In this document: piece by piece, positions 3,133 through 56,711 of the stretch
Layout: each line of letters begins with the position of its first letter
Position numbering within the stretch: the first letter of the stretch is position 1
Source: Siphonodentalium dalli
Taxonomy: Eukaryota; Mollusca; Scaphopoda; Gadilida; Siphonodentaliidae
NCBI GenBank assembly: GCA_032622095.1
Contig: CP136061.1
Location: 806,001-870,000, forward strand
Length of the DNA stretch: 64,000 nucleotides
Direction: 5' to 3'
The notes under the pieces: model-generated
Seen by the model: only the letters and a program-made list of their open reading frames with translations
The model's database searches: none
Told to the model about the DNA's origin: nothing
Position numbers and translations under genes: made by a program

Positions 3133-3369
3133 AATAGATATACTCATGTCAGTCTCATGTGTAATCACCATTATAATCACTCACCAGTTAGAGCAGAATC
3201 GCATTTACTATCTTTGCTTTGGGGCTGCGACGATACAAAATTTTATATGATATGCATCGTGATATAAATGGGTCACAATGAGGTGATGTGTATTGTGATG
3301 CATTGATGAAATGTTGCAGCCCTTTGTTCATGCTTTGTAGCGGCATATTAACACATTCCCACCATTCTA
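3133..3369. other. Spacer, nothing recognised
   Basis: AT-rich, with several ATGCATCGTGAT / GTGATGCATTGATG-like short inverted motifs around 3245-3320. No exon or gene seen. Equivalent spacers lie in each unit. Confidence 0.5.
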
Positions 3370-3582
3370 CAGTAATGCTCTAAATAATCGACTCCTTAAC
3401 CACAGCAGAATTATGGGTAATTTTTCAGGATTTAGTCGGAAATATGGCTTGTTGCCATTCATCGGAAAGCTCTCAGTGAGAGCTTTCCAATGAATGGCAA
3501 CAAGCCATATTTCCGACTAAATCCTGAAAAGTTACCTAAAATTCTGCTGTGGTTAAGGAGTTGATTATTTAGAGCATTACTG
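3370..3582. mobile_element. Tc1/mariner-type MITE forming a 213-bp hairpin (copy 1)
   Basis: Two 105-bp arms, nearly perfect reverse complements, separated by a 3-base loop (AGT). Ends are CAGTAATGC, flanked by TA on both sides (3368-3369, 3583-3584), as expected for Tc1/mariner target-site duplication and terminal CAGT. There is no coding capacity. Copies in every unit, a separate insertion at 8682-8884, and a truncated copy at 16187-16302. Confidence 0.85.
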
Positions 3583-3584
3583 TA

Positions 3585-4215: not shown

Positions 4216-4590
4216 GTACTTCCAGACTTGGAACTATATTGTGAACGGTGCAAGGATATGAGATATATGAGTGAAATGTGATTGCACCATTCACAATGAA
4301 TCTCATGCTTACGACATTCCATGTTTGTTACAAACCTTGTATCATATATATCCAGCACATGAATATGACTCAGATGTATATTTTAATGTTTGCTGTTTTG
4401 TACTGCTGAAACCTCTAACTTAGGCCAATGGGGGAATTGTCACAAGGCACCGATCACATTTGTAGCCAGATTTTAAAATCGATCACATGAAGATGTGCAA
4501 TACAGCTGAAGGCCAGTGTCTTGTTAAACAAGACGTGAATAGTGTCACTGTACGGAAATATGTTAATTCTTCTGAATACTTAATGGATTC
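4216..4590. other. Spacer ending at the first minisatellite junction
   Basis: No gene recognised. At 4487-4495 copy 1 jumps over 1.43 kb that the other units retain (13795-15226). At 4590 homology with the other units (15322) stops and the GTACC minisatellite begins. Confidence 0.7.
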
Positions 4591-5568
4591 ACTTTCAACG
4601 CACACTGTACCAAAAAGTGTACCAAAAAGCGTACCAAAAAGTGCCACGCCCACTTTTAGCGCACACTGTACCAAAAAGTGTACAAAAAAGCGTACCAAAA
4701 AGTGCCACGCCCACTTTCAGCGCACGCTGTGCCAAAAAGTGACACATCCACTTTTAGCGCACACTGTACCAACAAATGTACAAAAAGTGTAACAAAAAGT
4801 GCCACGCCCACTTTTAGCGCACACTGTACCAAAAAGTGTACCAAAAAATGTTACCAAAAGTGCCACGCTCACTTTCAGCGCACACTACCAAAAATTGTAC
4901 CAAAAAGTGTACAAAAAAGCGTACCAAAAAGTGCCACGCACACTTTCAGCGCACGCTGTGCCAAAAAGTGTACCAAAAAGTGACACATCCACTTTTAGCG
5001 CGCACTGTTCCAACAAATGTACAAAAAGTGCCACGCCCACTTTTAGCGCACACTGTACCAAAAAGTGTACCAAAAAATGTTACCAAAAGTGCCACGCTCA
5101 CTTTCAGCGCACACTGTACCAAAAAGTGTACCAAAAAGTGCCACGCTCACTTTCAGCGCACCCTGTACCAAAAAGTGTACCAAAAAGTGCCACGCCCACT
5201 TTCAGCGCACACTGTACCAAAAAGTGTACCAAAAAGTGCCACGCCCACTTTCAGCGCACACTGTACCAAAAAGTGTACAAAAAAGCGTACCAAAAAGTGC
5301 CACGCCCACTTTCAGCGCACGCTGTACCAAAAATTGTACCAAAAATTGTACCAAAAAGTGACACCCACTTTTAGCGCACACTACCAAAAAGTGTACCAAA
5401 AAGTGCCACGCCCACTTATAGCGCACGCTGTACCAAAAGTGTACCAAAAAGTGCCACGCCCACTTTTAGCGTACACTGTACCAAAAGGTGTACCAAAAAG
5501 CGTACCAAAAAGTTCCACACCCACTTTTAGCGCATACTGTACCAAAAAGTGTACCAAAAAGCGTACCA
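4591..5568 (+). repeat. GTACC minisatellite, junction array 1
   Basis: About twenty monomers of 49 bp (core CACGCCCACTTTTAGCGCAC followed by ACTGTACCAAAAAGTGTACC) with insertions or losses of a 12-base sub-unit GTACCAAAAAGT. Long open frames across it on both strands (up to 283 residues) come from the scarcity of stop triplets and are not genes. It lies exactly between the end of duplication block 1 (4590) and a truncated MITE (5569). Confidence 0.97.
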
Positions 5569-5725
5569 TAGGTCGCCTCGCATATATAAGAGAATGCATT
5601 GGCCTAACAATTTGTTTGTTTTTTTTTACAATTTTTTACAATTTTAATAATTTATTCTTTATATTCTTTAACAGACTTATTTTGTAGGTTTAGGGCCGAT
5701 GAGATCGGCCCCTGGCACTCAAGGG
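5569..5725. mobile_element. Truncated piggyBac-type MITE (right half)
   Basis: Right half of the element described at 13976-14223: one palindrome arm, poly-T stretch, GGGCCGAT and terminal CACTCAAGGG followed by TTAA (5726-5729). The left half is replaced by the minisatellite; the join falls within ACCA shared by both partners. Confidence 0.75.
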
Positions 5726-5856
5726 TTAAAGAAGATTGTTTATGTTGTTGTTTTAACTGGAGGTCTGGATACCTGATTACATCTGTAATCAAATTATCTA
5801 ACTGATTTTGCTATATTATGCATCTTTTCATTTCATGTCCTGTTCTTTTTTCACAG

Positions 5857-5923
5857 AAACTGTCTCATGAAAGACAAGCCACTCACCTCCAAGATACAAA
5901 CATGTTCAGTAGTGCCGTTCATT
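5857..5923 (+). CDS. ELAPOR-like receptor, membrane-proximal ectodomain exon
   Basis: 67-bp exon after TTCTTTTTTCACAG and before the consensus donor GTAAGT. It enters in phase 2 (one base) and then reads NCLMKDKPLTSKIQTCSV followed by VPFI, leaving in phase 0, which fits the transmembrane exon at 9226. The two cysteines are 14 residues apart. As I recall human ELAPOR1, its last two ectodomain cysteines (CIKG...LATC) have the same spacing and lie the same distance before the WKKN stop-transfer sequence. The preceding exon is not in the window: only copied 3' sequence, minisatellite and MITE lie to the left. Intron to the next exon: 3302 bases. Confidence 0.8.
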
Positions 5924-6054
5924 GTAAGTTAATCAGTAACGCTTATAATCACTCACCTCACAAGATTTTATAAGAATCTTTCTGCACTTGCACTTGTAAT
6001 ATCTGTTCGTTTTCATATATTAGTCAACCATATACATCTAGCATCAGTGGATCT

Positions 6055-6195
6055 TTGTATCAACCCATATACCCTGTGCCAATGCATTCTCTTATATATG
6101 CGAGTCGACCATAGGTCGCCTCGCATATATAAGAGAATGCATTGGCCTAACAATTTTTTATTTTTTTTTACAATTTTTTACAATTTTAATAATAT
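6055..6195. mobile_element. Internal piece of the piggyBac-type MITE with full palindrome
   Basis: Matches the interior of the element at 13976-14223 from TTGTATCAACCCATATACCC to the AATTTTAATAAT run, without either terminal repeat. The 69-bp palindrome is at 6078-6146. Confidence 0.75.
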
Positions 6196-6587
6196 AGCCT
6201 TCCATGGAAGCATCGGACATCACTGAAGACCGGACAAAAAAGTGGTCGAACAAGACTGTCCGGTCACGCAGCAGACCATAGTGGCAATAATATTAGTAAA
6301 AATAACATATCGATATGGCCATCACATTCCTGGAATAGTTCCCTTTAATTTGATATATGGATCAACCATTTACAGCTAGTGTTTGTGGAGATATCTCCTA
6401 CGAAACCATCGGAAACTGGCAAAAAAAAAAATAACTTGATCCAGTATAATGCTATGAGTCTGGACAGAGTCTTGTTCGACCATTTTGTTTTGTTTTGACG
6501 TCTTGATGGTTTCAGGGAAGATATCGCCACTGTTGCTAACACCAAACATGGTTAATCCATATATCAAAATGTAGGGAATTATTATAG
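6196..6587. repeat. Nested inverted-repeat sequence within the intron
   Basis: TTTGATATATGGATCAACCA (from about 6351) pairs imperfectly with the reverse of 6541-6580, and GATATCTCC..GAAACCATC pairs with GATGGTTTCAGGGAAGATATC. TCGAACAAGACTGTCCGGTCACGCAGCAG (from 6247, first 20 bases TCGAACAAGACTGTCCGGTC) also has an inverted relative near 8960-9000. A fold-back element interrupted by later insertions is likely; the family is not identified. Confidence 0.5.
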
Positions 6588-7600
6588 CAACCACAACGCG
6601 CCGCAGGCGCGTTGTTGCTTTTCATGTTTAGGCGTGAATGACGTCATTAATTTTTACAATACCATGAAACAGCATTTCGACGCGATGAAAATCCGGACAA
6701 GAAAAATGGGTTAAAAATCACGTGACTTCCGCTTCGCTTTCGCATAGAATCATGGGAACAATAATATCCCAAAAAGAAACGGTGACACAGAATCGGAAGT
6801 GGACCAACGGGATGGTTATAAAATTAACAACTTTAGTTTTTCTGAACAATTCCTACGTGATTTTGGCCTAGAGATTAGTTTCGTTTGACCAATTTCGTTG
6901 GTTAGCTGAATAAAATCAGCGAAGACGTCATGACATGGTCCATGACGTCATTTGCGTCATTTGGTGTCGTGGGCTAGAATCCAGAAAAAAATGGTCTCCG
7001 CAGGAAACACTGATTTCACATCAGTATACTAGACTTGGTTGCATTTATAACCGTTTTCGCAAAAGATATATGCGAAAATAGCACAAGCTAACGTGCCTGC
7101 TTCAGAATCAAATTACAACAGTTGAATAGCCAAGGATGTACCCTTTCCAACAATGTATAGCACGACATCGTGTGTTGCGCCGATGTTTACTTATGGTGTT
7201 TTGTAATAACGATCCCGCCTTAGCTGCGTGTAATTTTCCTCCGGACAAATTGCTCAGCGAAAAATCCCCCTAATAGGCGGACAACACATTCAATAAGTTC
7301 CCGTCTCGCAACGATTTGGCCTCACAGACATATCAGCGGCTTATCAATTCCTTCGAGATAAATGATTGAACCAATCTACCCTAACAAGGGGGATTTTTTC
7401 ACGGTTGTATGTCGCGCGAATAGTATTGGCTGGCTGCCAGGTATTCACACTCAACATCGGAACGCGGCTTATTATTTGAAATCATTTGTGAGCAGTGGTG
7501 GCAGCGAGGAAGTCAAATGATATGTCCATCATAACATGGGTCGCCTTCGTTGGTGAAGTTGGAATTAAGCCTCAACCAAATTTGTTGTCAAGTTGATGTG
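6588..7600. other. Intronic insert, about 1 kb, no gene seen
   Basis: Higher GC than its surroundings. Features: a short palindrome AACGCGCCGCAGGCGCGTT at 6596; two perfect CRE motifs TGACGTCA near 6641 and 6951; TCACGTGA at 6718; a 13-base inverted pair AAAAATCCCCCT/AGGGGGATTTTTT at about 7260 and 7385. No open frame of note. Present once in the window. Confidence 0.5.
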
Positions 7601-8660
7601 GGGGGCTTATATGACCTTGACCTTGACCATAAAATGACCTTGACCTCTGTTGAAAGACATCTCACTTAAAGGGCCATTTTGCTAGATATGTGTTGCGATG
7701 TACGCGCTAATGTCAATATGCAGAGGCCTTTTATAGCTATCCTTTAGAAATATACCGGTATTGAGGCTCCTACATACTCGAGTCTGTATCTGACGAACAG
7801 AAACATGGGAGTACGATATCAATTTAAACTTGACCTCCATAAAGAATCTATTATATATTTGAAGAAAGTTTGTGGTCTGTGCGTGTGGGTGTGTGTGTAT
7901 GTATGTGTGTGTGTGTTTCCGCGATGGAATCGGAAACGGCTAACCGATTTTGATGAAACTTGGTACGGGTATGTAGTTTGACCTGAGGACTAACATGGGT
8001 ATATCCGTTTGCCCGTGCGGCGTGACCTTGACCTTCAAATGACCTTGAACTCAAGTTCTCCGCTGAGCCGATTTTCACCAAATTTGGTATGTGGGGGTAG
8101 TTTCAGGCGCTGAGCAATTTCGTCACACCCGGATGCCCGTGCGGCGTGAACTTGATATTTTAAATGACATTGAACTGTATCTGGGTATCCACTGGCCCGA
8201 TTTCCACCATTTTTTGGGGGTGTTGGTGTAGATGGGGATGCCAACAAATTTCGTCTCACCCACATGCCCGTCAGACAGGTACCCAGCTAAAACCTAATGT
8301 ATAGTTTGTGACTTTTGTCTGTTAGCTATGGTCGGGAAAACTTCCGGACGGATTTCGACGAAACTTGATACCTAAGTGTACGTTTGTCCGGGAAGTGTTT
8401 TGGACGGGTCAAAGTGTGATGCTTGATCTTCAAAATGGTCGATTCAAGATCAAATCGGGTAATAGTGGCGGATTTCGACGATATTCGATAGCTAGGGATA
8501 CTTTTGTCCGGGCAGTGTTTTGGGCGGCTTAACTCGTAACCCCGACCTGACATTGACATTCAAAACGGTAAATTCAAGGTCAAATCTGGTCAAATTTCGC
8601 ATAACTAGATCCGACGAAGCACCGCGTGTGGTTGCCCCGTTACGTGTCACGTACGATCAT
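7600..8660. repeat. Bivalve-type dispersed tandem repeats
   Basis: Degenerate monomers of about 125 bp (7930-8270, key motif CCGATTTTxACCAAATTTGGTA, ending CCCGTGCGGCGTGACCTTGA) and of about 140 bp (8345-8600, GGATTTCGACGAAACTTGAT). Repeats of this look are widespread in bivalve genomes. They contain several TGACCTTGA motifs. A GT-rich microsatellite is at 7876-7916. No coding content. Confidence 0.6.
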
Positions 8661-8681
8661 ATTAGGAATACATTCATTCTA

Positions 8682-8884
8682 CAGTAATGCTCTAAGTAAT
8701 CGACTTCTTAACCACAGCAGAATTATGGGTAAATTTTCAGGATTTAGTCGGAAATATGGCTTGTTGCCATTCATCGGAAAGCTCTCGGCCAGTGAATGGC
8801 AACAAGCCATATTTCCGACTAAATCCTGAAAATTTACCCATAATTCTGCTGTGGTTAAGTGGTCAATTACTTTGGGCATTACTG
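8682..8884. mobile_element. Tc1/mariner-type hairpin MITE, independent insertion
   Basis: Same family as 3370-3582: ends CAGTAATGC, TA on both sides (8680-8681, 8885-8886), arms of about 98 bp around a short loop. It differs from the unit copies at several positions and sits in a different context, so it is a separate insertion and not part of the segmental duplication. Confidence 0.85.
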
Positions 8885-9225
8885 TATATCAAAATGTAGG
8901 GAATTATTATAGGAATACGTTTATTCTACATTTATATTTTATCATTGCAATTCTGCAATGGACTGCTGCGTGACCAGACAGAGTCTTGTTCAATCTACAT
9001 GTCCATTTCACGGACATGTGGAAATTCTCAATTCAAAGAGTTAGGAACCTTGTCTTATACATAGGTACTTTTTAGTGTTATGATCAATTTTGTGTCAGTT
9101 ACCTGTGGTTTAGACAGCAAATCATCAATTATTGAACGGAATCTTGTTTGTTTTCAATTGATCCAACGTGGCATCAATTGACCTATCAAATAATGTATGC
9201 TGAAATTATGTTTTGTTGATTCCAG
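8885..9225 (+). other. Intron 3' part before the transmembrane exon
   Basis: Begins with a 28-base stretch identical to 6560-6587, then an inverted relative of the 6205-6300 repeat. Ends at the acceptor TTGATTCCAG. No gene seen. Confidence 0.5.
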
Positions 9226-9308
9226 ATAGAGATAGCTGTCCCCGTGGCTGTGGGCACTGTGTTGATATTGCTACTGGTATTGGGCTACTGTTGGAAAAAA
9301 AACAGAAA
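9226..9308 (+). CDS. ELAPOR-like receptor, transmembrane exon
   Basis: 83-bp exon, acceptor TTGATTCCAG, donor AAA/GTTAGT. Phase 0 start reads IEIAVPVAVGTVLILLLVLG then YCWKKNR with two bases left, which the next exon (10815) completes as K before LEYKY. About 21 hydrophobic residues are followed by the basic stop-transfer KKNRK: a type I single-pass membrane segment. WKKN-[QR]-KLEYKY is characteristic of the ELAPOR1/2 family (endosome/lysosome-associated regulators of apoptosis and autophagy, MRH-type ectodomain). The overlapping frame starting at 9213 shares no features with the family and is a shadow. Confidence 0.9.
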
Positions 9309-10814
9309 GTTAGTATGATCATCACTGTTAGTGATAATTTATATTATTACCACTTCAAATGGCGTTTTCTAGTTAGATTAATTGTATTTTACACGCACGG
9401 TAAGATTCCATAATTTTGAGGTGAAGTTGACCGTTAGCGAGCGGCAGTTATTAATGAACCTTATTTTCATTAATGCCTGGTGTCTGCTTCTGGTTAAGTC
9501 ACTGATCACGTGATCATGCGAGGATGGAGTGGTAATACTAGTAATAACATGATTTTGTCGGGCGTCATGGTTTATTAACGGCCTGACAGGAACGATTAAC
9601 AGTCCTCGGGCCTATTAGCATCCCTCAAGCTGTTATCATATTCTATACTAAACACATTACTCATTACGAGTAGTTATCCTGTAGGAAATTCTAGGTTATT
9701 AAGTTCAACAAACAACCTTTAATAGTTCATTTGTTGAACTTATTATGTGAACGTTTTCCTGCAATAAATAGTACTCCTTTACTTTTGTTATCAGTTGTGT
9801 GCTTATCTTTCCTGAAACCTCCTCCAAATCAATAATAGATCATTCTAATGTACACTTTTATAACTGAGTGGGAGAATCATTTAGTATAGATAGTGTTAAT
9901 CATTCCCGTGGGACCGTTAATAAACAAAAATCATGTTATTGGTATAATACATATAAGAAAGCAAGAGGAGAATATGTTTATTTTGCCACACTTAAAAGGG
10001 TACTGTACACTAAATTCTGCCATTTATATGACCATCTCATTTTATACTCAACAGAATATATGCAACAAATGAATGAATTTGAGCCATGAATAAGTTCAAA
10101 ACACACTCAAGTTCTCAATGAACGATGCAAACAACATGCTAATTATACTGGAAATGAATAAATGGCTGGAGTCAAAAATTCATTTCCATTATAATTAACA
10201 TGTTCTTTGCATCATTCACAGAGCACATGAGTGTATTTTTCACTAATCCATGGATCAAATTCATCCATTTGTTGCATATATTCTGTTGAGTATAAAAGGA
10301 GATGGTCTCATAAATGGCTGAATTTAGTGTACAGTCCCCCTTTAAGGGAATTTAGTGTACAGTCCCCCTTTAAGGGAATTTAGTGTACAGTCCCCCTTTA
10401 AGGGAATTTAGTGTACAGTCCCCTTTTAAGGCCAATATATAAATCAATAACTAGATTCTCATCCAACGTTTTTTGAAAATTGGGGCGGGAGGGTGAATTT
10501 TATTTTTTATATATTATTCCTGCCAACAAATGGTCAGTCTAGAAATTTAACCAGTATCCTACATTATAGAAAAAAGTTTAAATCAAAATTATCCGAATAT
10601 ATTTATTGATTCCTAGATATATGTGCATGTACATGTATTATGCTGATTAGGCAATGAGCTCGATGTAATGTAAAGCGCCGTTGAATATGTACTCATAATA
10701 TTGAGCGCTATACAAATTAATTATTGTATTGTATTGTATTATGGACCATACTGATTCAATGCATTTACTAACTGTTATGTACAATACTGATTCAATGCAT
10801 TTGATGTTCACCAG
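9309..10814 (+). other. Intron between transmembrane and tail exons
   Basis: 1506 bases. From 9375 it is the second copy of 1-1440, including the CLEAR-like palindrome (9503-9516), the fold-back element (9991-10351) and the 28-bp repeat (10320-10432). Confidence 0.8.
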
Positions 10815-10989
10815 ATTGGAGTACAAGTATTGTAAGCTGATTGATGAGTCGAGTGGTAAGGGTGAACTACCACCCTCCGAAACGTGTGCCTTTGATGACG
10901 ATGAAGACGAAGAGGCCGACCAAGTTGAATTCAAAAGTAATAAGAGTGGGATGCTATTTAGTAAGCTCAAAAACAAGATTTCAAAAAAG
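10815..10989 (+). CDS. ELAPOR-like receptor, main cytoplasmic-tail exon (copy 2)
   Basis: Identical in layout to 1441-1615. In this copy the upstream transmembrane exon is in the window and phases match (two bases AA at 9307-9308 plus the A at 10815). Joined, the tail after the membrane has about 80 residues, comparable with vertebrate ELAPOR tails. The YCKL motif lies close to the membrane, as expected for AP-complex sorting, and the acidic cluster DDDEDEEAD suggests TGN/endosome cycling (inference). Confidence 0.9.
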
Positions 10990-11525
10990 GTTTGTGTCAC
11001 GCATAATTCTCCATCTATTTATATAAAAAAAATAGCAGGATCTGTCTGTCCGTCTGTCTATTTGTTCGCGATTTTTCTTGCAGACCCTGGACTGATTTCA
11101 ACCAAAGTTGTTGTTGTGACTTGAGGCAGATATTATAACGGCATTAGTTTTTCAAAATTTTAATTTAAAAAACAGTTTGTTTTATTAAAGCTACATCACT
11201 TTTGATTTTGTTCTGATGTCGAAATAAATAGGTCGATAAATACTTTCTATGAGCATTATATGTCCCAGAATGACATATTGAAGTCATAAAAAATACAACT
11301 TTGAACAAGATGTTTTGGTCCCAAACAAAAAAACAGCCATGTGCAGGGCATGGGACAGAAAAGAGCGTTCAGTGTTAGTCTATTCCTGATTTGACCTAAA
11401 CACTTCGGAAAATTAAAATCAGTCTTTATACCGGTTACTTTTTACTCCCTGAGTGGTAATAATATATAAATTCTGTCTTTTTACTACCTGAGTGGTAATA
11501 ATATATAAATTCTGTCTTTTTACAG

Positions 11526-11573
11526 GATGATTTTGATAACATGAAGCTGGACGAGAAAATGCCATTGACGTAA
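11526..11573 (+). CDS. ELAPOR-like receptor, last coding exon (copy 2)
   Basis: Same 16 codons as 2152-2199, with an intact 536-bp intron upstream linking it to 10815-10989. This is the last position in the window where the terminal exon still has its proper upstream exon. It also starts the first 11-kb tandem unit. 3'UTR minisatellite 11626-11897 and poly(A) signal 11945 follow. Confidence 0.88.
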   Translation, partial: DDFDNMKLDEKMPLT

Positions 11574-11625
11574 ACAGCTGTGCTGACATAATCGTATGAT
11601 TATCAATGTAATCTGACATAATTGT

Positions 11626-11897
11626 TGACTCATTAGGTAGTGCAGACGCTCATCACCCATGACTCATTAGGTAGTGCAGACGCTCATCACCCATGACTCA
11701 TTAGGTAGTGCAGACGCTCATCACCCATGACTCATTAGGTAGTGCAGACGCTCATCACCCATGACTCATTAGGTAGTGCAGACGCTCATCACCCATGACT
11801 CATTAGGTAGTGCAGACGCTCATCACCCATGACTCATTAGGTAGTGCAGACGCTCATCACCCATGACTCATTAAGTAGTGCAGACGCTCATCACCCA
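11626..11897 (+). repeat. 34-bp minisatellite, 8 copies
   Basis: Same monomer as 2252-2591, including the variant last monomer; two copies fewer. Confidence 0.98.
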
Positions 11898-12675
11898 TGA
11901 CATATTTGCTCATAATTTTTTTGAACATATGATATTGTTGCCTGAATAAATAATATAATATAGTTATCATATTTATATTGTACAGAAATGACATTTGCAG
12001 AATGTGTCTGACATTTGAAGAATGAGGTCCCCAAAGGGTGATTTTAATGACGCTATCCCGCATAGTTGGCTAGCATCACCAAATTCACCATCTGGCTACC
12101 TCATTCTATATCCCATAATTTGCAGAAGATAAATTGCATAATCGAGGTGACCAATGGGTGAACATCACCAACCTCAACTTGGGAACTTCAATCATAATAG
12201 ATACTCATGTCTCCCTCTAGGCTGGTTCCCCGCCTGGTATAATGATCTACTGATGTAATCTCCAGTCTATGTAATCATAATAGATACTCATGTCTCCCTC
12301 TAGGCTGGTTCCCCGCCTGGTATAATGATCTACTGATGTAATCTCCAGTCTATGTAATCATAATAGATACTCATGTCTCCCTCTAGACTGGTTCCCCACC
12401 TGGTGTAATGATCTACTGATGTAATCTCCAGTCTATGTAATAGATATACTCATGTCAGTCTCATGTGTAATCACCATTATAATCACTCACCAGTTAGAGC
12501 AGAATCGCATTTACTATCTTTGCTTTGGGGCTGCGACGATACAAAATTTTATATGATATGCATCGTGATATAAATGGGTCACAATGAGGTGATGTGTATT
12601 GTGATGCATTGATGAAATGTTGCAGCCCTTTGTTCATGCTTTGTAGCGGCATATTAACACATTCCCACCATTCTA

Positions 12676-12888
12676 CAGTAATGCTCTAAATAATCGACTC
12701 CTTAACCACAGCAGAATTATGGGTAATTTTTCAGGATTTAGTCGGAAATATGGCTTGTTGCCATTCATCGGAAAGCTCTCAGTGAGAGCTTTCCAATGAA
12801 TGGCAACAAGCCATATTTCCGACTAAATCCTGAAAAGTTACCTAAAATTCTGCTGTGGTTAAGGAGTTGATTATTTAGAGCATTACTG
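12676..12888. mobile_element. Tc1/mariner-type hairpin MITE (T1)
   Basis: Same insertion as 3370-3582, carried by the segmental duplication. Confidence 0.85.
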
Positions 12889-13975
12889 TATATCACATCC
12901 CCATTTACTTATCAAACTACTATCGCAGAAACACTGCTATAGATTACGTGGTGATATTGTACATTCCGTAATATTGACATTGATCATATTCCAAGCCATG
13001 AATGTCAATCGACCATAATAACACATGTCTCTTTGTCTCAAACTTTTAAATGAATTGCCATGACTTTGTTTCATATACATCAAGGAAACTATAGGGAACT
13101 ATAGAAGCCTGGAAATACTGTGTGTGACATTTTCAGAATGAGGTCCCCAGACGGTGAGATTAGTGATGCTACCCCACAAAGGGAACTAGCATCGCCAAAT
13201 TCACCCTCTGGAGACCTCTTTCTGCTTAGACCTCATCTTCTGTGAAGTATCTACAGTCTCAAATTAACATTGTTTTAGTTACTTTTTCCCTTCTGTTCAG
13301 TTTCTATATCCCATAATTTGCAGAAGATAAAATGTTTAATCGATGTGACTAACGGTGAACATCACAAATGTCAGCTGGGGAACATCAGGTCTCCCATAGC
13401 AGTTGAGGCCTGAGCAGAATGAGGTTCCCTATGGATGAATTTGGTGACATTCACCATGTGTGTGTGGTAGCATCACTATATTCACAATCCTGGGACCTTA
13501 TTCTGCAAATGACAGACAGAGTACTTCCAGACTTGGAACTATATTGTGAACGGTGCAAGGATATAAGATATATGAGTGAAATGTGATTGCACCATTCACA
13601 ATGAATCTCATGCTTATGACATTCCATGTTTATTCCAAACCTTGTACCATATATATATCCAGCACGTGAATATGACTCAGATGTATATTTTAATGTTTGC
13701 TGTTTTGTACTGCTGGAACCTCTAACTTAGGTCGATGGGGTCATTGTCACAAGGCACCGATCACATTCGTAGCCAGATTTTAAAATCGATCACAAATGTA
13801 GCCAGCTTTTCACAGGCAATCACACTCGTAGCTAGCTTTTCAAATTCCATCGTTTTATATGCAATATATGACATTGCGTAAGTTATGTGACTAAAATTTG
13901 CGATGTCATGCTTCAGAACTGGGTTCTTTTAATGGTTGAAAGCCCTATGTACATAAATGATTAAATAATATTTAA

Positions 13976-14223
13976 CCCTTTGAGTGTCAGGTCCGATTTT
14001 TGTATCAACCCATATACCCTGTGCCAATGCATTCTCTTATATATGCGAGTCGACCATAGGTCGCATCGCATATATAAGAGAATGCATTGGCCTAACAATT
14101 TTTCATCATTTGTTATTATTTTTTACAATTTTTTACAATTTTAATAATTTTTTAAAAATCTAAAAAAAAAAATGTTTTTTATTTTTTTAGGGCCGATTTT
14201 ACAGACAACTGGCACTGAAAGGG
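13976..14223. mobile_element. piggyBac-type MITE with internal 69-bp palindrome (T1)
   Basis: Terminal inverted repeats CCCTTTGAGTGTCAG and, reversed, CCCTTTCAGTGCCAG, flanked by TTAA on both sides (13972-13975, 14224-14227). TTAA duplication with CCCTTT ends is typical of piggyBac-family elements. The interior holds a palindrome at 14023-14091 (GCCAATGCATTCTCTTATAT arm, loop near TCGACCATAGGTCG) and a poly-A/T stretch. No coding sequence. A non-autonomous element. Confidence 0.82.
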
Positions 14224-14227
14224 TTAA

Positions 14228-14671
14228 TGTATTTCTTCCATTATAAATTTATAAGTTGTTTTTCATTCATCTACTCAAGAATATGATTAGCCAAACAATT
14301 AATCTCGTTCATCAGACCCACATGAATATGAAAAGCTGGCAACGAATGTGATCGCCCTTGAAAAGCTAACTACATTTGTGTTCAATTTTAAAAGCTGGAT
14401 ACGAATGTGATCGATGCCTTGTGACAATGATCCCATCGGCCTAACTTTGACGCCCTAAATTTTCTGGTTTGCTCTGTTTATCCTGACAATGTCCACAATA
14501 ATAATGTCAATTGGCTGAACCTGAAATGTACCTGTAACTTATCTTGTCTTCCTGTAATTATTTCCGTTGATGACAAAAGTTATAAATATAGTTAGGTTTC
14601 ATTTGTTTATTTAAATGATGCTCAATTTATTTACAAATGCTTTTTAATCCTTTTTAACTCTCAAATTTTGC
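14228..14671. other. Spacer, nothing recognised
   Basis: Contains short inverted motifs around CGAATGTGATCG and AAAGCTGG (14334-14420) that mirror GATCACATTCGTAGCCAG at 13755-13830, so the piggyBac-type MITE sits inside an older imperfect inverted repeat. No gene. Copies offset +11175, +22583, +33757, +44933. Confidence 0.5.
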
Positions 14672-14786
14672 AAATGCATTCTCTTATATATGCGAGTCTC
14701 CCACAGGAGCTTCATACATATATAAGAGAATACATTGACCAAACAATATTTACCTATGGTCGACTCACATATATAAGAGAATGCAC
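14672..14786. repeat. Degenerate palindrome arms of the piggyBac-type MITE family
   Basis: Three arms of the ATGCATTCTCTTATATATGC type: a hairpin at 14672-14738 and a further arm at 14752-14786. The open frame across it (60 residues) is incidental. Copies at 25847, 37255, 48429 and 59605. Confidence 0.7.
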
Positions 14787-15917
14787 AGGATCTTTAATGC
14801 TGCACCAGCGCAGTTCCCATCATGAAATTAATTTAGACCAAGTAGGGTAATAGTGATGAGTTAAGAACTGCTTTTAGAAGTGAATTTGACTTGGCTAAAT
14901 AGATATAAAAAAAAACTATGTTCTCAGGTGCCTTCCTATCACATCAAGAGGCCTCATAAAACATGTTATTTACAAATTTATGCAGATTTCAAAATCTGAT
15001 GTTCCATTTTTCCACATTTTGATAATTAGATTGTTTATAATGACTATAAAGCACTGGGTGAGGGTTTTATAAAACTCTGTATATCTGCTAATTTCTAGAA
15101 TTCTTGGGAAAAAGTAAAAGTCCGGCCTCCCTTATTCAGTTTTCCATGTTTAATTATCTGTGAACAGATATTTATTTCTATGACCTAATTTTGTTTTCTA
15201 GCATAATATAACTTGATAAAGTGAAAGTGCAATACAGCTGAAGGCCAGTGTTTTGTTAAACAAGACGTGAATAGTGTCACTGTACGGAAATTTGTTAATT
15301 CTTCTGAATACTTAATGGATTCTCCATTCAGTGATAAAAGAGTAGACTGGAATGGTCCATTCTTCATTTGTAGGGGTGTTCAGATACTATAATCAGACGT
15401 CAATCGGAGAAACATTCTTTTAGGATTCATTTGCAATGGTGTTCAGATAATAAGGCTCGCTGTTGAACTTATAAACTGAACATCATACAAATGAATCATT
15501 AGGAATCAAGTAATTATGCATCATCACATATTCAGTTATCAGCCCATTGAATGCTAAATGTAACTAATTTAACAAGTTTGATAGATGATTGTGTGAATTG
15601 TGTTCTGTAGTTATTCCACATCTGAGCATCAAGGCCATTATTAATGTGTATTTTGTATTATGTTTATGTTTCATTTGTGAGAAATATAAATGTTTATGTC
15701 ATGCTGATGATTTAATATGCTAAATACTTATTGGACATTGACAGATGTATTCAGGGTTCCAGGGCAAGTTTTACAATTAAATTCTAGTGTATATAAGTTA
15801 GCATATGTGGAATTAGAATGCCACCTCAATAACTAACCATTAATTTCATATAGTTTTGTTGATCTAGATGGACAATAAAAGTTAGCACCTTGATTTTTCA
15901 ACAACTATATGACAATT
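14787..15917. other. AT-rich spacer, no gene seen
   Basis: About 1.1 kb without recognisable genes. 15227-15322 is the stretch that flanks the first minisatellite in copy 1 (4495-4590); here it continues uninterrupted. The 60-residue reverse open frame at 15185-15367 has no features of a protein. Confidence 0.5.
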
Positions 15918-16196
15918 TTACGCTCGAGTCATAAACTCATTTTCATTATAATTACCATGCATTAATTTGCATCGTTCATAGAACACATGAGTGTATTTTG
16001 CACTAATCCATGGCTCAAATTCATTAATTTGTTGCATATATTCGGTTGTGTATAAAAGGAAATGGTACCATAAGTACCCTTTTAACAAGCTATTTGTGTG
16101 TGGATCTTCAAATTCAGGTATCACCTCCCAGAAAAAACAAACATCCAGAGCAACACATAAACCCATATCGCTAAATTGATCAGACCCCTTAACCAC
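15918..16196 (-). other. Single arm of the fold-back repeat with a 92-residue open frame
   Basis: The reverse strand is open and includes TEYMQQINEFEPWISAKYTH. Nearly the same peptide can be read from both arms of the fold-back element at 617-977. No family recognised. Because both strands of that element carry it, a decayed captured exon or chance conservation of repeat DNA are the likely explanations. Copies: 27093-27371, 38501-38779, 49675-49953, 60851-61129; an inverted partial copy lies in 31280-31387. Confidence 0.35.
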
Positions 16197-16302
16197 AGCA
16201 GAATTATGGGTAACTTTTCAGGATTTGGTCGGAAATATGAATTGTTGCATTCATCAGAAAGCTCTGCTGTGATTAAGGAGTCGATTATTTAGCTCATTAC
16301 TG
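16187..16302. mobile_element. Truncated Tc1/mariner-type MITE
   Basis: Inner and right parts of the hairpin family (TTAACCACAGCAGAATTATG ... CATTACTGTA) with the left terminus missing and much of the stem deleted. Copies: 27362-27477, 38770-38885, 49944-50059, 61120-61235; inverted at 31163-31278. Confidence 0.75.
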
Positions 16303-16459
16303 TATGTTGTTGTAACTCTCGAATCGTGAGTATATCTTTAAGAGATGTGTAATAAGTTATGTTGCATGATACTTTTCTGTAAATCAAAGCTAACATTTTG
16401 TGATCCTTTGAATATTGTTATAAAACGGTCACACATCAATCATGATATTTTAAATTGCT

Positions 16460-16591
16460 AAATATCAAATTAATACACAACTATTCTTTATATGTATGGT
16501 TCTAAATGTCAAATTAATAGACAACTATTCTTTATATGTATGGTTCTAAATGTCAAATTAATAGACAACTATTCTTTATATGTATGGTTCT
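16460..16591. repeat. 44-bp tandem repeat, 3 copies
   Basis: Three monomers with CAAATTAATAGACAACTATT and CTTTATATGTATGGTTCT. Copies: 27635-27766, 39043-39174, 50217-50348, 61393-61524; inverted within 30874-31005. Confidence 0.97.
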
Positions 16592-16823
16592 TTTTCCAAT
16601 TTTCCACATTCCAAAATTAATTTTCTCGTTTCATATTTGTTTATATAAAACACAAACTTACTTTCTTATTTTCTTAGATTAACACGAACATTCCATTTAT
16701 TATACTATCTTTATTTATTACATATTTCTTATTTCATTCCGAGATGTAAACAGATGGCCAGATGTACGAAGCTTGTGTATTATACGATACGATTTTATTT
16801 CATAGTAACACAAGCATGCCTGG
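16592..16823. other. AT-rich spacer, nothing recognised
   Basis: Very AT-rich; no exon or repeat identified. Confidence 0.5.
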
Positions 16824-17158
16824 TGTGTCTGACATCTGCAGAATGAGGTCCCCAGAGGGTAAATTTAGTGATGCTACCCTGCATGGTGGGCTAGCATAAC
16901 CAAATTCACCCTCTGGGGACCTCCTTCTGCTTTGGCCTCATCTTCTGGGAAGTATCTACAGTCTCAAATTAACATTGTTTTTAGTTACTTTCTCCATTCA
17001 ACTGGGGAACTTCAATTTGATCCTAGGCCTCCCATAGGAGTTAACGCCTAAGCAGAATGAGGTCCCCAGTGGGTGAATTTGGTGATGTTAACCCTCTATG
17101 CAGGATAGCTTCACTAAATTCACCCTCTAGGGACCTCATTCTACAATTGACAGACACA
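16824..17158. mobile_element. Long-TIR MITE (TGTGTCTGACA family), short form
   Basis: 335 bp. Ends TGTGTCTGACATCTGCAGAA and, reversed, TGTGTCTGTCAATTGTAGAA, about 29 bp each. Two inner stems each pair AATGAGGTCCCCAG... with ...GGGACCTCATTCT-like sequence, giving a double-hairpin layout. Copies: 27999-28333, 39407-39741, 50581-50915, 61757-62091. A reversed remnant of the family's interior is at 18262-18355. Confidence 0.75.
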
Positions 17159-17350
17159 CTATTTGCAGACTTGAACACGAGCTATCTGTTACAAGTAATG
17201 TCATCTCAAACAATTTATGTATAGAATGTTCTGTAATATTGTGATCTGAAGTACTGAAATTTGTGGTGTTATATTAAAGTGATGTGAAACACTCCGGTAT
17301 GGTGATCAAATATAAAAGGAGAATAACCTTGTTCAAAGTAGTAATTTTTA

Positions 17351-17726
17351 TACGCCCTTTTGAAAAAAAGGCCGTATTATAGTATTGGTCTGTCCGTCCG
17401 GGCGGGCGTCCGGGCGTCCGTTAACCTGTTGTCCGGATGATAACTTTAGTTAGAGTGAACCGATTTCAATAAAATTTGGTATGTGGGTTTATTAACCGAA
17501 AAGTAAGTTCAAGTTCGAATTTGGGTTCCGCCCGCCAATTTTCACCGGAGTTATGCCCCTTATTTGACTTAGAAAATCCTAGAAATTTGTTGTCCGGATG
17601 ATAACTTTAGTATAGTTTATCGGAATGAATCCAAATTTGGTATATTACTTTCTCCCACCAAAACACAGGTCAAGTTCGAACTTGGGTTCTGTCCGACCAT
17701 TTTTGGCAGAGTTATGCCCCTTTTTT
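17351..17726. repeat. Bivalve-type dispersed repeat, two tandem monomers
   Basis: Starts TACGCCCTTTTGAAAAAAAG; two monomers about 161 bp apart begin TTGTCCGGATGATAACTTTA (near 17429 and 17590) and end GAGTTATGCCCC. Similar in style to the block at 7600-8660. Copies: 28526-28901, 39934-40309, 51108-51483, 62284-62659. Confidence 0.65.
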
Positions 17727-18619
17727 ATTATAAACTATGATTCCTGTGGTATTGTTGTGAATATTTATTGTTAATAAACTAATTTTGATCACTGAAGCAG
17801 CGTTCGATGTAATACTGATGTAACTAGATGATACTGGGGACCCTTGAATAGGACAGTGAATCTCTAAGAATAATGTCTCCAATAATACTTGTGTTCACAT
17901 ACAAAATTAGGTTTCCTGAGTGAAGTAATATCCAGGAATTTTCTGTTTCTATGTTTTGTTTCTACAGTTTCATTTCTATATTTTAAGATGTTTATATTAT
18001 TTCTGTTGTATAAATTGTGTTTTTCATGTGATAATACAGGTCAGATGTACAAGTTCAATGTCTACTTATTTCATTTGAATACTAACCACCTATGGACAAA
18101 GCTGATCAAAATATGTTTTAAGTCAGTCACTGTCTGTTTTCTTGAGGAAATCCCTGGCGTAACCCTTTCATGACTGGAGCTTCCTGAAAGTTTGTGAAAA
18201 CCCTGTGCCAGTGCATTCTCTGATATATGCGAGTCTCCCATAGGATTATGCATATTAATCTTCTGCAAATAAGGGGATATAGAAACTGAGCAGAAGTAAC
18301 TAAAAACAATGTTAAATTGAGACTAAAGATACTATCCCAGAAGACGAGGCAAATAAGATATTCTGAAATATGTAGACATTATCTGTGATCCATACAGTTT
18401 AGAGATGACTCAGATAAGGTATAGTGTGACCTGTATGATTGTTTACTTATGACATGCTTCATAAATTATACATTTTATACTCTACTTCATACACTTTCTT
18501 TCTCTAACACTGCCTGATTATTTTATTTACAGTAAAAGAATTCAATTTACATTGTGTTTGACTTAGTTATTCCCTGACACCCAGTTCTGACATATATTGC
18601 CAAAAAATCACATGAGTTT
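17727..18619. other. Spacer with MITE remnants, no gene recognised
   Basis: An open frame of 94 residues at 17889-18173 is hydrophobic because it is T-rich and has no recognisable domain. 18212-18245 is one arm of the TATATATGCGAG palindrome and 18262-18355 a reversed long-TIR MITE remnant. Copies at +11175, +22583, +33757 and +44933. Confidence 0.5.
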
Positions 18620-18732
18620 CTATTTTATACGGAATTTATCAACCGAGTTGACAAAATTCGATTCGAGCCGAGGTTTACCGAGGCTCAAATAGAATTTAGT
18701 GGACGAGGTTGATAAATTACGCATAAAATAGG
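18620..18732. repeat. Imperfect 113-bp palindrome
   Basis: CTATTTTATACGGAATTTAT ... TGATAAATTACGCATAAAAT with the centre near GAGGTTTACCGAGG; arms of about 50 bp with mismatches. A hairpin-forming dispersed repeat. Copies: 29795-29907, 41203-41315, 52377-52489, 63553-63665. Confidence 0.75.
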
Positions 18733-19888: not shown

Positions 19889-20280
19889 CCCTTTACCCAA
19901 CAAACCGGCCAAAACCGGCCAAATAAAGCTTCAACAGCCTAAAATATCTTCGGTCTGTCTCAATAGAACCATACAAATATGGATATCATTGTAACCGGCT
20001 CATTGACACATTGTGATAGTTACAGTTATGCCATGTGCCAATGCATTCCCTTATATATGCGAGTCGACCATAGGTCGCCTCGCATATATAAGAGAATGCA
20101 TTGGCCTAAAAAAATAATCTTTTTTAACACTTTTTACCATTTTTTCTTACATTCTTTAACAATTTTATAATTTTTAATGTGTTAAGCCAATGCATTCTCT
20201 TATATATGCGAGGCGACCTATGGTCGACTCGCATATATAAGAGAATGCATTGGCACATGGCCGTTCTGTTGGTTAAAGGG
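19889..20280. mobile_element. Second piggyBac-type MITE with two opposed palindromes (T1)
   Basis: Ends CCCTTTACCCAACAAACCGG and, reversed, CCCTTTAACCAACAGAACGG. Left flank TTAA (19885-19888), right flank TCAA, a one-base change from TTAA. Two 69-bp palindromes (20037-20105, 20185-20253) have loops that are reverse complements of each other, so the second is the inverted orientation of the first. No coding capacity. Confidence 0.75.
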
Positions 20281-20721: not shown

Positions 20722-20857
20722 TATAATGATGAAATATACGATGAAAAAGATGGCGTTTTACATCAAATGAGCACTTGTAAAAAAATTCATGTGGATATTG
20801 GAACGGGAACAAATTATTCTATATTGCCTCATAATATCATCATCAAACGAACGCGAT

Positions 20858-21490: not shown

Positions 21491-21608
21491 GTTATAAGTG
21501 GCACTTTTTGATACATTGTGCGCTATAACTGGGCGAGGCACATTTTGTACATTGTGCGTTATAAGTGAGCGTGACACTTTTTGGTACAGTGTGCGTAATA
21601 AGTGGGCG
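21491..21608 (-). repeat. Inverted GTACC-type monomers (T1)
   Basis: About three degenerate monomers in reverse orientation (GCACTTTTTGATACATTGTG, GACACTTTTTGGTACAGTGTG split, GTGGGCG), with a shorter period than the main array and more divergent. Copies: 32899-33016, 44073-44190, 55249-55366. Confidence 0.85.
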
Positions 21609-21822
21609 TTTCCAAAGTCGGCAATGACAAAAAACAGTTTTCAGCGCCTTGCTTCGCTCGGACTGCGTAATGAAGATGGCAAACATTGACTCTCAAAGTA
21701 ACCCGACCAACGGAGAGATAGCGTGCGGATGGGTTCAGACTTTTGGAAAATTCCTCCGTAAATGGCTGTATTTGAGTGCGGCATCACTAAGCTATTTTTG
21801 GTATCGTATGTTGGCGGACGAC
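21609..21822 (+). other. Unique spacer between opposed minisatellite arms, with an ATG frame
   Basis: GC-richer 214 bp. An ATG at 21676 in good context (GAAGATGGC) opens MANIDSQSNPTNGEIACGWV and a hydrophobic stretch WLYLSAASLSYFWY before running into the minisatellite. It could be a captured 5' exon; no family recognised. Copies: 33017-33230, 44191-44404, 55367-55580. Confidence 0.35.
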
Positions 21823-22939
21823 AAAAAAGTGTACCAAAAAGTGCCACGCCCACTTTTAGCGCACACTGTACCAAAAGGTGTACCAAAAAGCGTACCAAAA
21901 AGTGCCACACCCACTTTTAGCGCATACTGTACCAACAAATGTGCCAAAAAGTGTAACAAAAAGTGCCACGCCCACTTTCAGCGCACGCTGTACCAAAAAT
22001 TGTACCAAAAAGTGTACCAAAAAGTGCCACGCCCACTTATAGCGCACACTGTACCAAAAAGTGTACCAAAAAGTGCCACGCCCACTTTCAGCGCACACTG
22101 TACCAAAAAGTGTATCAAAAAGTGCCACGCCCACTTTCCAGCGCACACTGTACCAAAAGGTGTACCAAAAAGCGTACCAAAAAGTGCCACACCCACTTTT
22201 AGCGCATACTGTACCAAAAAGTGTACAAAAAAGCGTACCAAAAAGTGCCACGTCCACTTTCAGCGCACGCTTTTCCAAAATTGTACCAAAAAGTGTACCA
22301 AAAAGTGACACCCACTTTTAGCGCACACTGTACCAAAAAGTGTACCAAAAAGTGCCACGCCCACTTATAGCGTACGCTGTACAAAAAATAGTAACAAAAA
22401 GTGCCACGCCCACTTTCAGCGCACACTGTACCAAAAGTGTACCAAAAAGTGCCACGCCCACTTTTAGCGTACACTGTACCAAAAGGTGTACCAAAAAGCG
22501 TACCAAAAAGTGCCACACCCACTTTTAGCGCATACTGTACCAAAAAGTGTACAAAAAAGCGTACCAAAAAGTACCACGCCCACTTTCAGCGCACGCTGTA
22601 CCAAAAAGTGACACCCACTTTTAGCGCACACTGTACCAAAAAGTGTACCAAAAAGTGCCACGCCCACTTATAGCGTACGCTGTACAAAAAATAGTACCAA
22701 AAAGTGCCACGCCCACTTTCAGCGCACACTGTACCAAAAGTGTACCAAAAAGTGCCACGCCCACTTTTAGCGTACACTGTACCAAAAGGTGTACCAAAAA
22801 GCGTACCAAAAAGTGCCACACCCACTTTTAGTGCATACTGTACCAAAAAGTGTACAAAAAAGCGTACCAAAAGGTGCCACGCCCACTTTCAGCGCACGCT
22901 GTACCAAAAAATAGTACCAAAAAGTGCCACGCCCACTTT
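21823..22939 (+). repeat. GTACC minisatellite (T1, junction to T2)
   Basis: About 22 monomers of the same family as 4591-5568, with a higher-order repeat of about 303 bp (22318-22620 closely resembles 22621-22923). It ends CCCACTTTC, fused to the last-exon acceptor at 22940. Overlapping open frames on both strands are artefacts of low stop density. Confidence 0.97.
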
Positions 22940-22953
22940 CTGTCTTTTTACAG

Positions 22954-23001
22954 GATGATTTTGATAACATGAAGCTGGACGAGAAAATGCCATTGACGTA
23001 A
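22954..23001 (+). pseudogene. Orphan ELAPOR-like last exon, unit T2
   Basis: The 16-codon exon and 14 bases of its acceptor tract are intact, but the sequence upstream is the GTACC minisatellite, not the normal intron and tail exon. The join lies at CCCACTTTC/TGTCTTTTTACAG, where minisatellite and intron share TTC. It could serve only as a distant alternative terminal exon giving the same C-terminus; more likely it is a passive fragment. Confidence 0.85.
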
Positions 23002-23053
23002 ACAGCTGTGCTGACATAATCGTATGATTATCAATGTAATCTGACATAATTGT

Positions 23054-33230: not shown

Positions 33231-34347
33231 AAAAAAGTGTACCAAAAAGTGCCACGCCCACTTTTAGCGCACACTGTACCAAAAGGTGTACCAAAAAGCG
33301 TACCAAAAAGTGCCACACCCACTTTTAGCGCATACTGTACCAACAAATGTGCCAAAAAGTGTAACAAAAAGTGCCACGCCCACTTTCAGCGCACGCTGTA
33401 CCAAAAATTGTACCAAAAAGTGTACCAAAAAGTGCCACGCCCACTTATAGCGCACACTGTACCAAAAAGTGTACCAAAAAGTGCCACGCCCACTTTCAGC
33501 GCACACTGTACCAAAAAGTGTATCAAAAAGTGCCACGCCCACTTTCCAGCGCACACTGTACCAAAAGGTGTACCAAAAAGCGTACCAAAAAGTGCCACAC
33601 CCACTTTTAGCGCATACTGTACCAAAAAGTGTACAAAAAAGCGTACCAAAAAGTGCCACGTCCACTTTCAGCGCACGCTTTTCCAAAATTGTACCAAAAA
33701 GTGTACCAAAAAGTGACACCCACTTTTAGCGCACACTGTACCAAAAAGTGTACCAAAAAGTGCCACGCCCACTTATAGCGTACGCTGTACAAAAAATAGT
33801 AACAAAAAGTGCCACGCCCACTTTCAGCGCACACTGTACCAAAAGTGTACCAAAAAGTGCCACGCCCACTTTTAGCGTACACTGTACCAAAAGGTGTACC
33901 AAAAAGCGTACCAAAAAGTGCCACACCCACTTTTAGCGCATACTGTACCAAAAAGTGTACAAAAAAGCGTACCAAAAAGTACCACGCCCACTTTCAGCGC
34001 ACGCTGTACCAAAAAGTGACACCCACTTTTAGCGCACACTGTACCAAAAAGTGTACCAAAAAGTGCCACGCCCACTTATAGCGTACGCTGTACAAAAAAT
34101 AGTACCAAAAAGTGCCACGCCCACTTTCAGCGCACACTGTACCAAAAGTGTACCAAAAAGTGCCACGCCCACTTTTAGCGTACACTGTACCAAAAGGTGT
34201 ACCAAAAAGCGTACCAAAAAGTGCCACACCCACTTTTAGTGCATACTGTACCAAAAAGTGTACAAAAAAGCGTACCAAAAGGTGCCACGCCCACTTTCAG
34301 CGCACGCTGTACCAAAAAATAGTACCAAAAAGTGCCACGCCCACTTT
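33231..34347 (+). repeat. GTACC minisatellite (T2, junction to T3)
   Basis: Appears identical in length and variant pattern to 21823-22939. Confidence 0.97.
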
Positions 34348-34361
34348 CTGTCTTTTTACAG

Positions 34362-44404: not shown

Positions 44405-45521
44405 AAAAAAGTGTACCAAAAAGTGCCACGCCCACTTTTAGCGCACACTGTACCAAAAGGTGTACCAAAAAGCGTACCAAAAAGTGCCACACCCACTTTT
44501 AGCGCATACTGTACCAACAAATGTGCCAAAAAGTGTAACAAAAAGTGCCACGCCCACTTTCAGCGCACGCTGTACCAAAAATTGTACCAAAAAGTGTACC
44601 AAAAAGTGCCACGCCCACTTATAGCGCACACTGTACCAAAAAGTGTACCAAAAAGTGCCACGCCCACTTTCAGCGCACACTGTACCAAAAAGTGTATCAA
44701 AAAGTGCCACGCCCACTTTCCAGCGCACACTGTACCAAAAGGTGTACCAAAAAGCGTACCAAAAAGTGCCACACCCACTTTTAGCGCATACTGTACCAAA
44801 AAGTGTACAAAAAAGCGTACCAAAAAGTGCCACGTCCACTTTCAGCGCACGCTTTTCCAAAATTGTACCAAAAAGTGTACCAAAAAGTGACACCCACTTT
44901 TAGCGCACACTGTACCAAAAAGTGTACCAAAAAGTGCCACGCCCACTTATAGCGTACGCTGTACAAAAAATAGTAACAAAAAGTGCCACGCCCACTTTCA
45001 GCGCACACTGTACCAAAAGTGTACCAAAAAGTGCCACGCCCACTTTTAGCGTACACTGTACCAAAAGGTGTACCAAAAAGCGTACCAAAAAGTGCCACAC
45101 CCACTTTTAGCGCATACTGTACCAAAAAGTGTACAAAAAAGCGTACCAAAAAGTACCACGCCCACTTTCAGCGCACGCTGTACCAAAAAGTGACACCCAC
45201 TTTTAGCGCACACTGTACCAAAAAGTGTACCAAAAAGTGCCACGCCCACTTATAGCGTACGCTGTACAAAAAATAGTACCAAAAAGTGCCACGCCCACTT
45301 TCAGCGCACACTGTACCAAAAGTGTACCAAAAAGTGCCACGCCCACTTTTAGCGTACACTGTACCAAAAGGTGTACCAAAAAGCGTACCAAAAAGTGCCA
45401 CACCCACTTTTAGTGCATACTGTACCAAAAAGTGTACAAAAAAGCGTACCAAAAGGTGCCACGCCCACTTTCAGCGCACGCTGTACCAAAAAATAGTACC
45501 AAAAAGTGCCACGCCCACTTT
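44405..45521 (+). repeat. GTACC minisatellite (T3, junction to T4)
   Basis: Appears identical in length and variant pattern to 21823-22939. Confidence 0.97.
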
Positions 45522-45535
45522 CTGTCTTTTTACAG

Positions 45536-55580: not shown

Positions 55581-56697
55581 AAAAAAGTGTACCAAAAAGT
55601 GCCACGCCCACTTTTAGCGCACACTGTACCAAAAGGTGTACCAAAAAGCGTACCAAAAAGTGCCACACCCACTTTTAGCGCATACTGTACCAACAAATGT
55701 GCCAAAAAGTGTAACAAAAAGTGCCACGCCCACTTTCAGCGCACGCTGTACCAAAAATTGTACCAAAAAGTGTACCAAAAAGTGCCACGCCCACTTATAG
55801 CGCACACTGTACCAAAAAGTGTACCAAAAAGTGCCACGCCCACTTTCAGCGCACACTGTACCAAAAAGTGTATCAAAAAGTGCCACGCCCACTTTCCAGC
55901 GCACACTGTACCAAAAGGTGTACCAAAAAGCGTACCAAAAAGTGCCACACCCACTTTTAGCGCATACTGTACCAAAAAGTGTACAAAAAAGCGTACCAAA
56001 AAGTGCCACGTCCACTTTCAGCGCACGCTTTTCCAAAATTGTACCAAAAAGTGTACCAAAAAGTGACACCCACTTTTAGCGCACACTGTACCAAAAAGTG
56101 TACCAAAAAGTGCCACGCCCACTTATAGCGTACGCTGTACAAAAAATAGTAACAAAAAGTGCCACGCCCACTTTCAGCGCACACTGTACCAAAAGTGTAC
56201 CAAAAAGTGCCACGCCCACTTTTAGCGTACACTGTACCAAAAGGTGTACCAAAAAGCGTACCAAAAAGTGCCACACCCACTTTTAGCGCATACTGTACCA
56301 AAAAGTGTACAAAAAAGCGTACCAAAAAGTACCACGCCCACTTTCAGCGCACGCTGTACCAAAAAGTGACACCCACTTTTAGCGCACACTGTACCAAAAA
56401 GTGTACCAAAAAGTGCCACGCCCACTTATAGCGTACGCTGTACAAAAAATAGTACCAAAAAGTGCCACGCCCACTTTCAGCGCACACTGTACCAAAAGTG
56501 TACCAAAAAGTGCCACGCCCACTTTTAGCGTACACTGTACCAAAAGGTGTACCAAAAAGCGTACCAAAAAGTGCCACACCCACTTTTAGTGCATACTGTA
56601 CCAAAAAGTGTACAAAAAAGCGTACCAAAAGGTGCCACGCCCACTTTCAGCGCACGCTGTACCAAAAAATAGTACCAAAAAGTGCCACGCCCACTTT
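55581..56697 (+). repeat. GTACC minisatellite (T4, junction to T5)
   Basis: Appears identical in length and variant pattern to 21823-22939. Confidence 0.97.
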
Positions 56698-56711
56698 CTG
56701 TCTTTTTACAG

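Follow-up and report, generated by a model that had tools for sequence, protein, structure and literature searches.

The start of a tandem gene array is hard to observe, in contrast to its expansion. The nearest described concept for the junctions analyzed here is the grouping of breakpoints at one end in non-recurrent duplications of the PLP1 type, and the nearest evolved parallel is the CUP1 array of yeast. Duplications of the PLP1 type are modeled by NHEJ or FoSTeS, and palindrome or cruciform architecture is proposed as the stimulus (PMC2583991). At the locus described here, several founding junctions of differing age stand side by side in one genome, and at least two of the fused sites are also preserved in intact form. 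This coexistence makes it possible to test directly in what order the events occurred and what part one identifiable repeat played.

The window is a stretch of 64,000 nucleotides of the scaphopod Siphonodentalium dalli (C1:806001-870000), whose 2.2 Gb genome is assembled in nine contigs; with flanks added, C1:756-920 kb (164 kb) was covered. Positions without a contig name are those of the window, and native coordinates are positions in one reference unit (window 5569-21823), against which the stretch left of 5568 (from -50 kb) and unit 2 (22941-34348) were tiled. The repeat at issue, which we call M, is built of monomers of 49 or 61 bp on the 12-bp core TGTACCAAAAAG (TRF units of 12, 49, and 61 bp) and, with head-to-tail units within ~10-100 bp, fits the definition of a minisatellite. 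C1:756-920 kb holds 15 M arrays on the direct strand, 216 to 2020 bp long, and 12 of the 15 units have a short inverted M arm to the left of the array. In the units and loci that were compared, M is preceded on the left by a central unit (~200 bp) and a body that measures at least 1.2 kb. This body, the short inverted M arm, the central unit, and the long direct M array make up a composite repeat of low copy number, of which M forms the tail. The composite repeat is located in the 3' flank of an ELAPOR1-like gene, and the open reading frames of the unit look short by eye.

Three exons of this gene in block 2 (Table 1) form one open frame with AG and GT borders. The spliced tail matches the PDB entry of ELAPOR1 (9vql; phmmer E 6.3e-12, query residues 6-94), while the tail without the transmembrane exon gave a weak match to ELAPOR1 (E 0.59) and no match in a Pfam search. 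Judged by homology of its transmembrane segment and cytoplasmic tail, the gene in the unit is ELAPOR1-like. The macro-units begin at ~11510-11513, just before the last exon, and so only the last of the three exons, 15 codons, is copied; among the exons identified, it is the only one that the macro-units hold. The growth in copy number of the 3' end of the gene, proposed in the first-pass annotation, is thus seen here as copying of the last exon. The ELAPOR1-like transcript of block 2 could be spliced to the last exon there or to any of the nine downstream copies, which would leave the protein unchanged.

Table 1. Positions of M arrays, their partners, and gene segments in the window
Feature	Position	Strand	Remarks
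Palindromic element, ~217 bp	3368-3584, 8680-8886, 12674-12890 and equivalents		
Homologue of 15227-15322 (96 bp), joined to the left end of M	4495..4590	+	
M array, block 1/block 2 junction	4591..5568	+	Left partner native 15322; right partner MITE-internal 5569 (R3)
Truncated MITE, begins inside the element, directly after M	5565..5654	+	Matches 6108-6196 (96.7%) and 14053-14153 (86%)
Exon for the transmembrane helix, ELAPOR1-like gene, IEIAVPVAVGTVLILLLVLGYCWKKNR plus two bases	9226..9308	+	AG/GT borders, open spliced frame
Penultimate exon, cytoplasmic tail (LEYKYCKL...KISKK)	10815..10989	+	Matched at 11 places in three clusters of C1
Last exon, DDFDNMKLDEKMPLT-stop, intact context without M	11526..11573	+	Intact site at ten places
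Short inverted run of M monomers before the main array	21498..21609	-	Recurs in each macro-unit
Central unit between inverted and direct M arms (~200-bp unit)	21610..21823	+	Tandemly repeated at other loci
M array, macro-unit 1	21824..22940	+	Right partner 11513-equivalent (R4); overlap TTC, 3 bp
Copied last exon with splice acceptor, directly after M	22954..23001	+	More copies at 2152, 34362, 45536, 56712
M array, macro-unit 2, with R4 at its right end	33232..34348	+	
M array, macro-unit 3, with R4 at its right end	44406..45522	+	
M array, macro-unit 4, with R4 at its right end	55582..56698	+	

Two gene clusters were read through, and in both, all long junctions between tandem units have one side in M and the other in differing upstream DNA. 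Four junction classes occur in the cluster of the window and follow one another in blocks along the chromosome. R1 (731-774 kb; two in C1:756-920 kb) joins M to a 33-bp repeat before native 10739, and R2 (~790 kb; one seen) joins M through a 76-bp filler to native 9341; both lie left of the window. R3 (794-812 kb) leads from M into the MITE at 5569 and is also carried by relatives of block 1 upstream of the window. R4 (829-919 kb) joins M to native 11513, with TGTCTTTTTACAG followed by GATGAT across the joint at 22941 and a splice acceptor right of M. The first-pass annotation had placed M at 4591-5568 and at all four macro-unit junctions, with MITE sequence and a splice acceptor as differing right-hand partners, and both the arrays and the partners were found as described. 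The junctions of the four macro-units are copies of a single one, so that the window holds two founding junctions, not five. All 15 unit junctions in C1:756-920 kb (two, one, three, and nine for R1 to R4) have M, and all jump back in native order; no long direct backward jump without M was found in the tiled part. Exact matches genome-wide (four for R1, three for R3, nine for R4, all of these within C1:828928-918594, and eight for R6, described below) stay within one cluster for each class, a pattern of a founder followed by local spread.

Successive units also differ in small markers. A 34-bp minisatellite after the last exon has ~10, 8, and 3 copies (2252-2595, 11626-11901, and 23054-23159), and an 83-bp repeat has 3, 3, and 2 copies. 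At 30492-31390, an inverted 899-bp copy of 16075-16973 stands in place of ~660 bp (native 19324-19980), in macro-unit 2 only among the units of C1:756-920 kb.

Two more classes occur in a second cluster of this gene, which lies 262 Mb away at C1:262.73-262.82 Mb. Its first M array (3.0 kb) leads to native 11047 (R7) and its later M arrays to native 12760 (R6), a site that is intact in the first unit of the cluster. The R6 site lies inside a ~217-bp palindromic element that is 87-95% self-complementary. In a third cluster (C1:265.50 Mb), M is joined to another phase of the 33-bp repeat (R8, with the junction read in one of three copies), and R8 could be a re-broken R1. The claim that at least two rearrangements used the same repeat therefore extends beyond the window, with four classes here, two at C1:262.73-262.82 Mb, and one at C1:265.50 Mb. 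The seven fusions of M to the ELAPOR region (R1-R4, R6, R7, and R8) have differing M phases and differing partners or partner phases. Breakpoints are thus grouped on one side, with M fixed and the partners varying, the seven fusions being not necessarily seven independent events.

The further claim that M sits at every duplication junction stands for C1:756-920 kb and fails at C1:264.59 Mb. In that cluster, which has a period of ~6.9 kb, M is inside the unit and is followed by unrelated DNA (R5), and the unit junction (6590 to 19648) joins the R5 DNA to native 19648. Here, M is at most an edge of a transplanted segment. The regions C1:264.585-264.607 and C1:265.448-265.477 Mb have the same body and a ~6.91-kb period in opposite orientation, 0.85 Mb apart, and this pair of clusters is probably an inverted segmental duplication.

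M is rare in the genome. A 30-mer of M has 139 exact matches in 2.2 Gb, and its reversed control has none. With M at 15 of 15 unit junctions in C1:756-920 kb, the association exceeds chance. When arrays less than 100 kb apart are merged into one locus, a 50-mer of M (37 exact copies) falls into eight loci, five of them multi-copy, and a marker of the neighboring body (48 copies) into ten loci on four contigs, seven of them multi-copy. The GTACC pattern alone is too loose to tell about M, and it was the source of a control minisatellite family (65-bp spacing, 636 exact copies), which among the first 100 matches listed has 60 loci, one of them multi-copy. The share of multi-copy loci differs from that of the control for the body marker (Fisher p = 7.7e-7) and for M (p = 3.1e-5), figures that overstate the certainty because the loci are partly dependent (two C1 clusters share R5 and three share the gene) and because the single control family, dispersed and of higher copy number, is no close match to M. 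As far as these counts reach, the genome-wide test by which the first-pass annotation could have been refuted comes out in its favor: M is rare, and most of its loci are tandem clusters, in contrast to those of the one control minisatellite. Further multi-copy clusters of M or its body lie at C2:51.52-51.62, C4:10.58-10.66, C4:283.89-283.92, C9:190.16-190.21, and C5:235.57-235.59 Mb, away from any ELAPOR exon match; in the C5 and C9 clusters, the stretches read consist of M up to their far end. The single loci C2:37.33 and C4:31.70 Mb have foldback M arrays and no tandem units, and M alone is therefore not always accompanied by duplication. At both, opposite M arms stand head to head in a large foldback palindrome (L057:1812-2926 and L058:1919-6362, respectively). 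At the C4 locus, a 37-bp tandem repeat stops ~30 bp before the start of M.

Four joints are cleanly resolved, with overlaps of 2 bp at R1, 4 bp (ACCA) at R3, 3 bp (TTC) at R4, and 3 bp at R6. At R7 there is either no overlap or two unexplained bases or a mismatch, and at R8 an overlap of ~3 bp with one mismatch was read by eye. Four of the seven joints therefore have the few bp of microhomology that characterize MMEJ or FoSTeS, in raw lengths that fit NHEJ equally well. Ten places in three clusters have the R4 site in intact form, free of M, and the R4 and R6 arrays each keep the intact site in their first unit, from which it follows that M was not needed at both ends of the duplication.

We favor, with moderate confidence, the reading that M is a one-sided breakpoint hotspot, with joining by non-homologous repair and subsequent amplification by unequal crossing-over. 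M would act as a site of breakage or fork stalling. Through microhomology end joining or template switching, the end in M would become joined to non-homologous upstream DNA of the sister chromatid, and a tandem duplication would result. The long identical units would then undergo unequal crossing-over, which would multiply each new unit, and the cluster would grow in waves, each carrying the last exon of the gene. The junctions suggest that M was recurrently the weak spot from which adjoining DNA was copied, and we infer breakage at M itself. More tentatively, a minisatellite of foldback type might be a directional duplication engine, whose ends are recurrently joined upstream at separate loci, each founding a unit that unequal exchange spreads ahead of the next event, so that gene clusters would grow in waves from one fixed edge.

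Several observations stand against the hotspot: the unit junction at C1:264.59 Mb lies away from M, R2 has a filler, R7 has two unexplained bases or a mismatch, and fold scores are unremarkable. In windows of 112-149 bases, the single-strand folding of M is unexceptional (z-scores of -0.7 to -1.8 in four M windows), and four windows of other repeats in the same units gave +1.7, -1.4, -2.6, and +0.2. M lies within this spread and does not stand out by folding. Of the breakage or recombination hotspot first proposed, the recurrent use of M is upheld; the unit junction at C1:264.59 Mb and the ordinary fold scores speak against the stronger claim.

Some of the seven fusions could also be deletions that run to the right from M in an older array. 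The fullest version of this explanation, which we regard as rather unlikely, has one ancient tandem duplication with a junction of M to upstream DNA, followed by several deletions from the right edge of M that took away differing lengths of the next unit; M would then be a deletion hotspot, and unequal crossing-over would have spread the shortened units. The partners (5569, 9341, the 33-mer before 10739, 11047, 11513, and 12760) all lie in one direction, so that each fusion can be written as a longer loss, and deletions ending at the left edge of M are observed (15322 to M and 21578 to M; ~6.5 kb of the native unit is absent where the 96-bp piece at 4495-4590 is fused to M). Deletions thus use M as well. 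The deletions mostly spare M, however: five of the seven classes of deletion-type jump avoid it and two touch it (leaving aside short jumps within small tandem repeats, insertions, and the 899-bp inverted piece), and the deletion in the last unit of the C1:262.8 Mb cluster, which ends at native 19639, leaves M untouched. Moreover, an intact first unit stands directly before the arrays with a new junction, both in the window and at C1:262.73 Mb, as fresh duplications predict. Nested deletion and fresh duplication are not fully separable.

It is improbable that the composite repeat is a transposable element of foldback type whose aberrant one-ended transposition or insertion produced the junctions. 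Such an element would agree with the inverted arms of tandem subrepeats, which touch each other at C2:37.33 Mb and nearly do so at C4:31.70 Mb (the window has only a 112-bp inverted arm), and with the presence of the body marker at ten loci on four contigs, some of them in places where the search for ELAPOR exons gave no match. Against this, M ends at a different monomer phase at each junction and so has no fixed end, and the limits of homology on the left are ragged (near native 19609, 19639, and 19648), the one at 19639 being a deletion within a unit of the gene. Three left boundaries were tried for a discrete mobile element with fixed ends, which found no support. An unsystematic look noticed no target-site duplication.

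An assembly artefact, in which mis-joined repeats created the junctions or the unit copies, is very improbable. The macro-array does end in exactly 100 N (C1:924478-924577, right of the window), and its nine units are nearly identical (~99.95% for the R4 macro-units); against this, identity between units varies across the junction classes (~97.7%, 99%, and 99.95%), which by sequence divergence makes the units of different classes differ in age, and like junctions recur 262 Mb away. The 100 N are probably an assembly gap, and the number of macro-units is accordingly a lower bound. NAHR between upstream and downstream copies of M, of which a repeat at the junction is the classic product, can hardly have made each duplication, since it presupposes that the first unit, too, has M at its left end, and is contradicted for R4 and R6 by first units that are intact there without M.

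Among the papers listed by a literature search, none deals with the growth of ELAPOR arrays or with the M minisatellite. Galileo, reportedly a foldback transposon, has the same likeness to M as the foldback transposon Tetris. In Tetris, this likeness consists of inverted arms of internal tandem repeats and of links to satellites and to rearrangements (PMC4079207). Unlike the Tetris/Galileo type, the M repeat was seen without defined termini and has a variable right end (PMC4079207). Tandem repeats also occur at human copy-number breakpoints, where the reported pattern is a statistical enrichment over many repeats (PMC4090240), whereas a single family recurs at the present locus. The arrays resemble those of yeast CUP1 in having several junction classes for one gene and later unequal crossover, with homology of at most 3 bp at the CUP1 junctions; the CUP1 classes come from different strains, its breakpoints are clustered but are not in a minisatellite, and its units carry a functional gene, whereas the macro-units here hold only the last exon among those identified (PMC4232551). 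As in PLP1-type duplications, one breakpoint falls in a small region and the other varies, and the duplications are mostly tandem, with microhomology of 2-5 bp reported for PLP1 (PMC2583991). M differs from the PLP1 type in that the arrays have evolved and are fixed, at more than one locus in a single genome, with the common breakpoint inside a minisatellite and the new units locally multiplied (PMC2583991).
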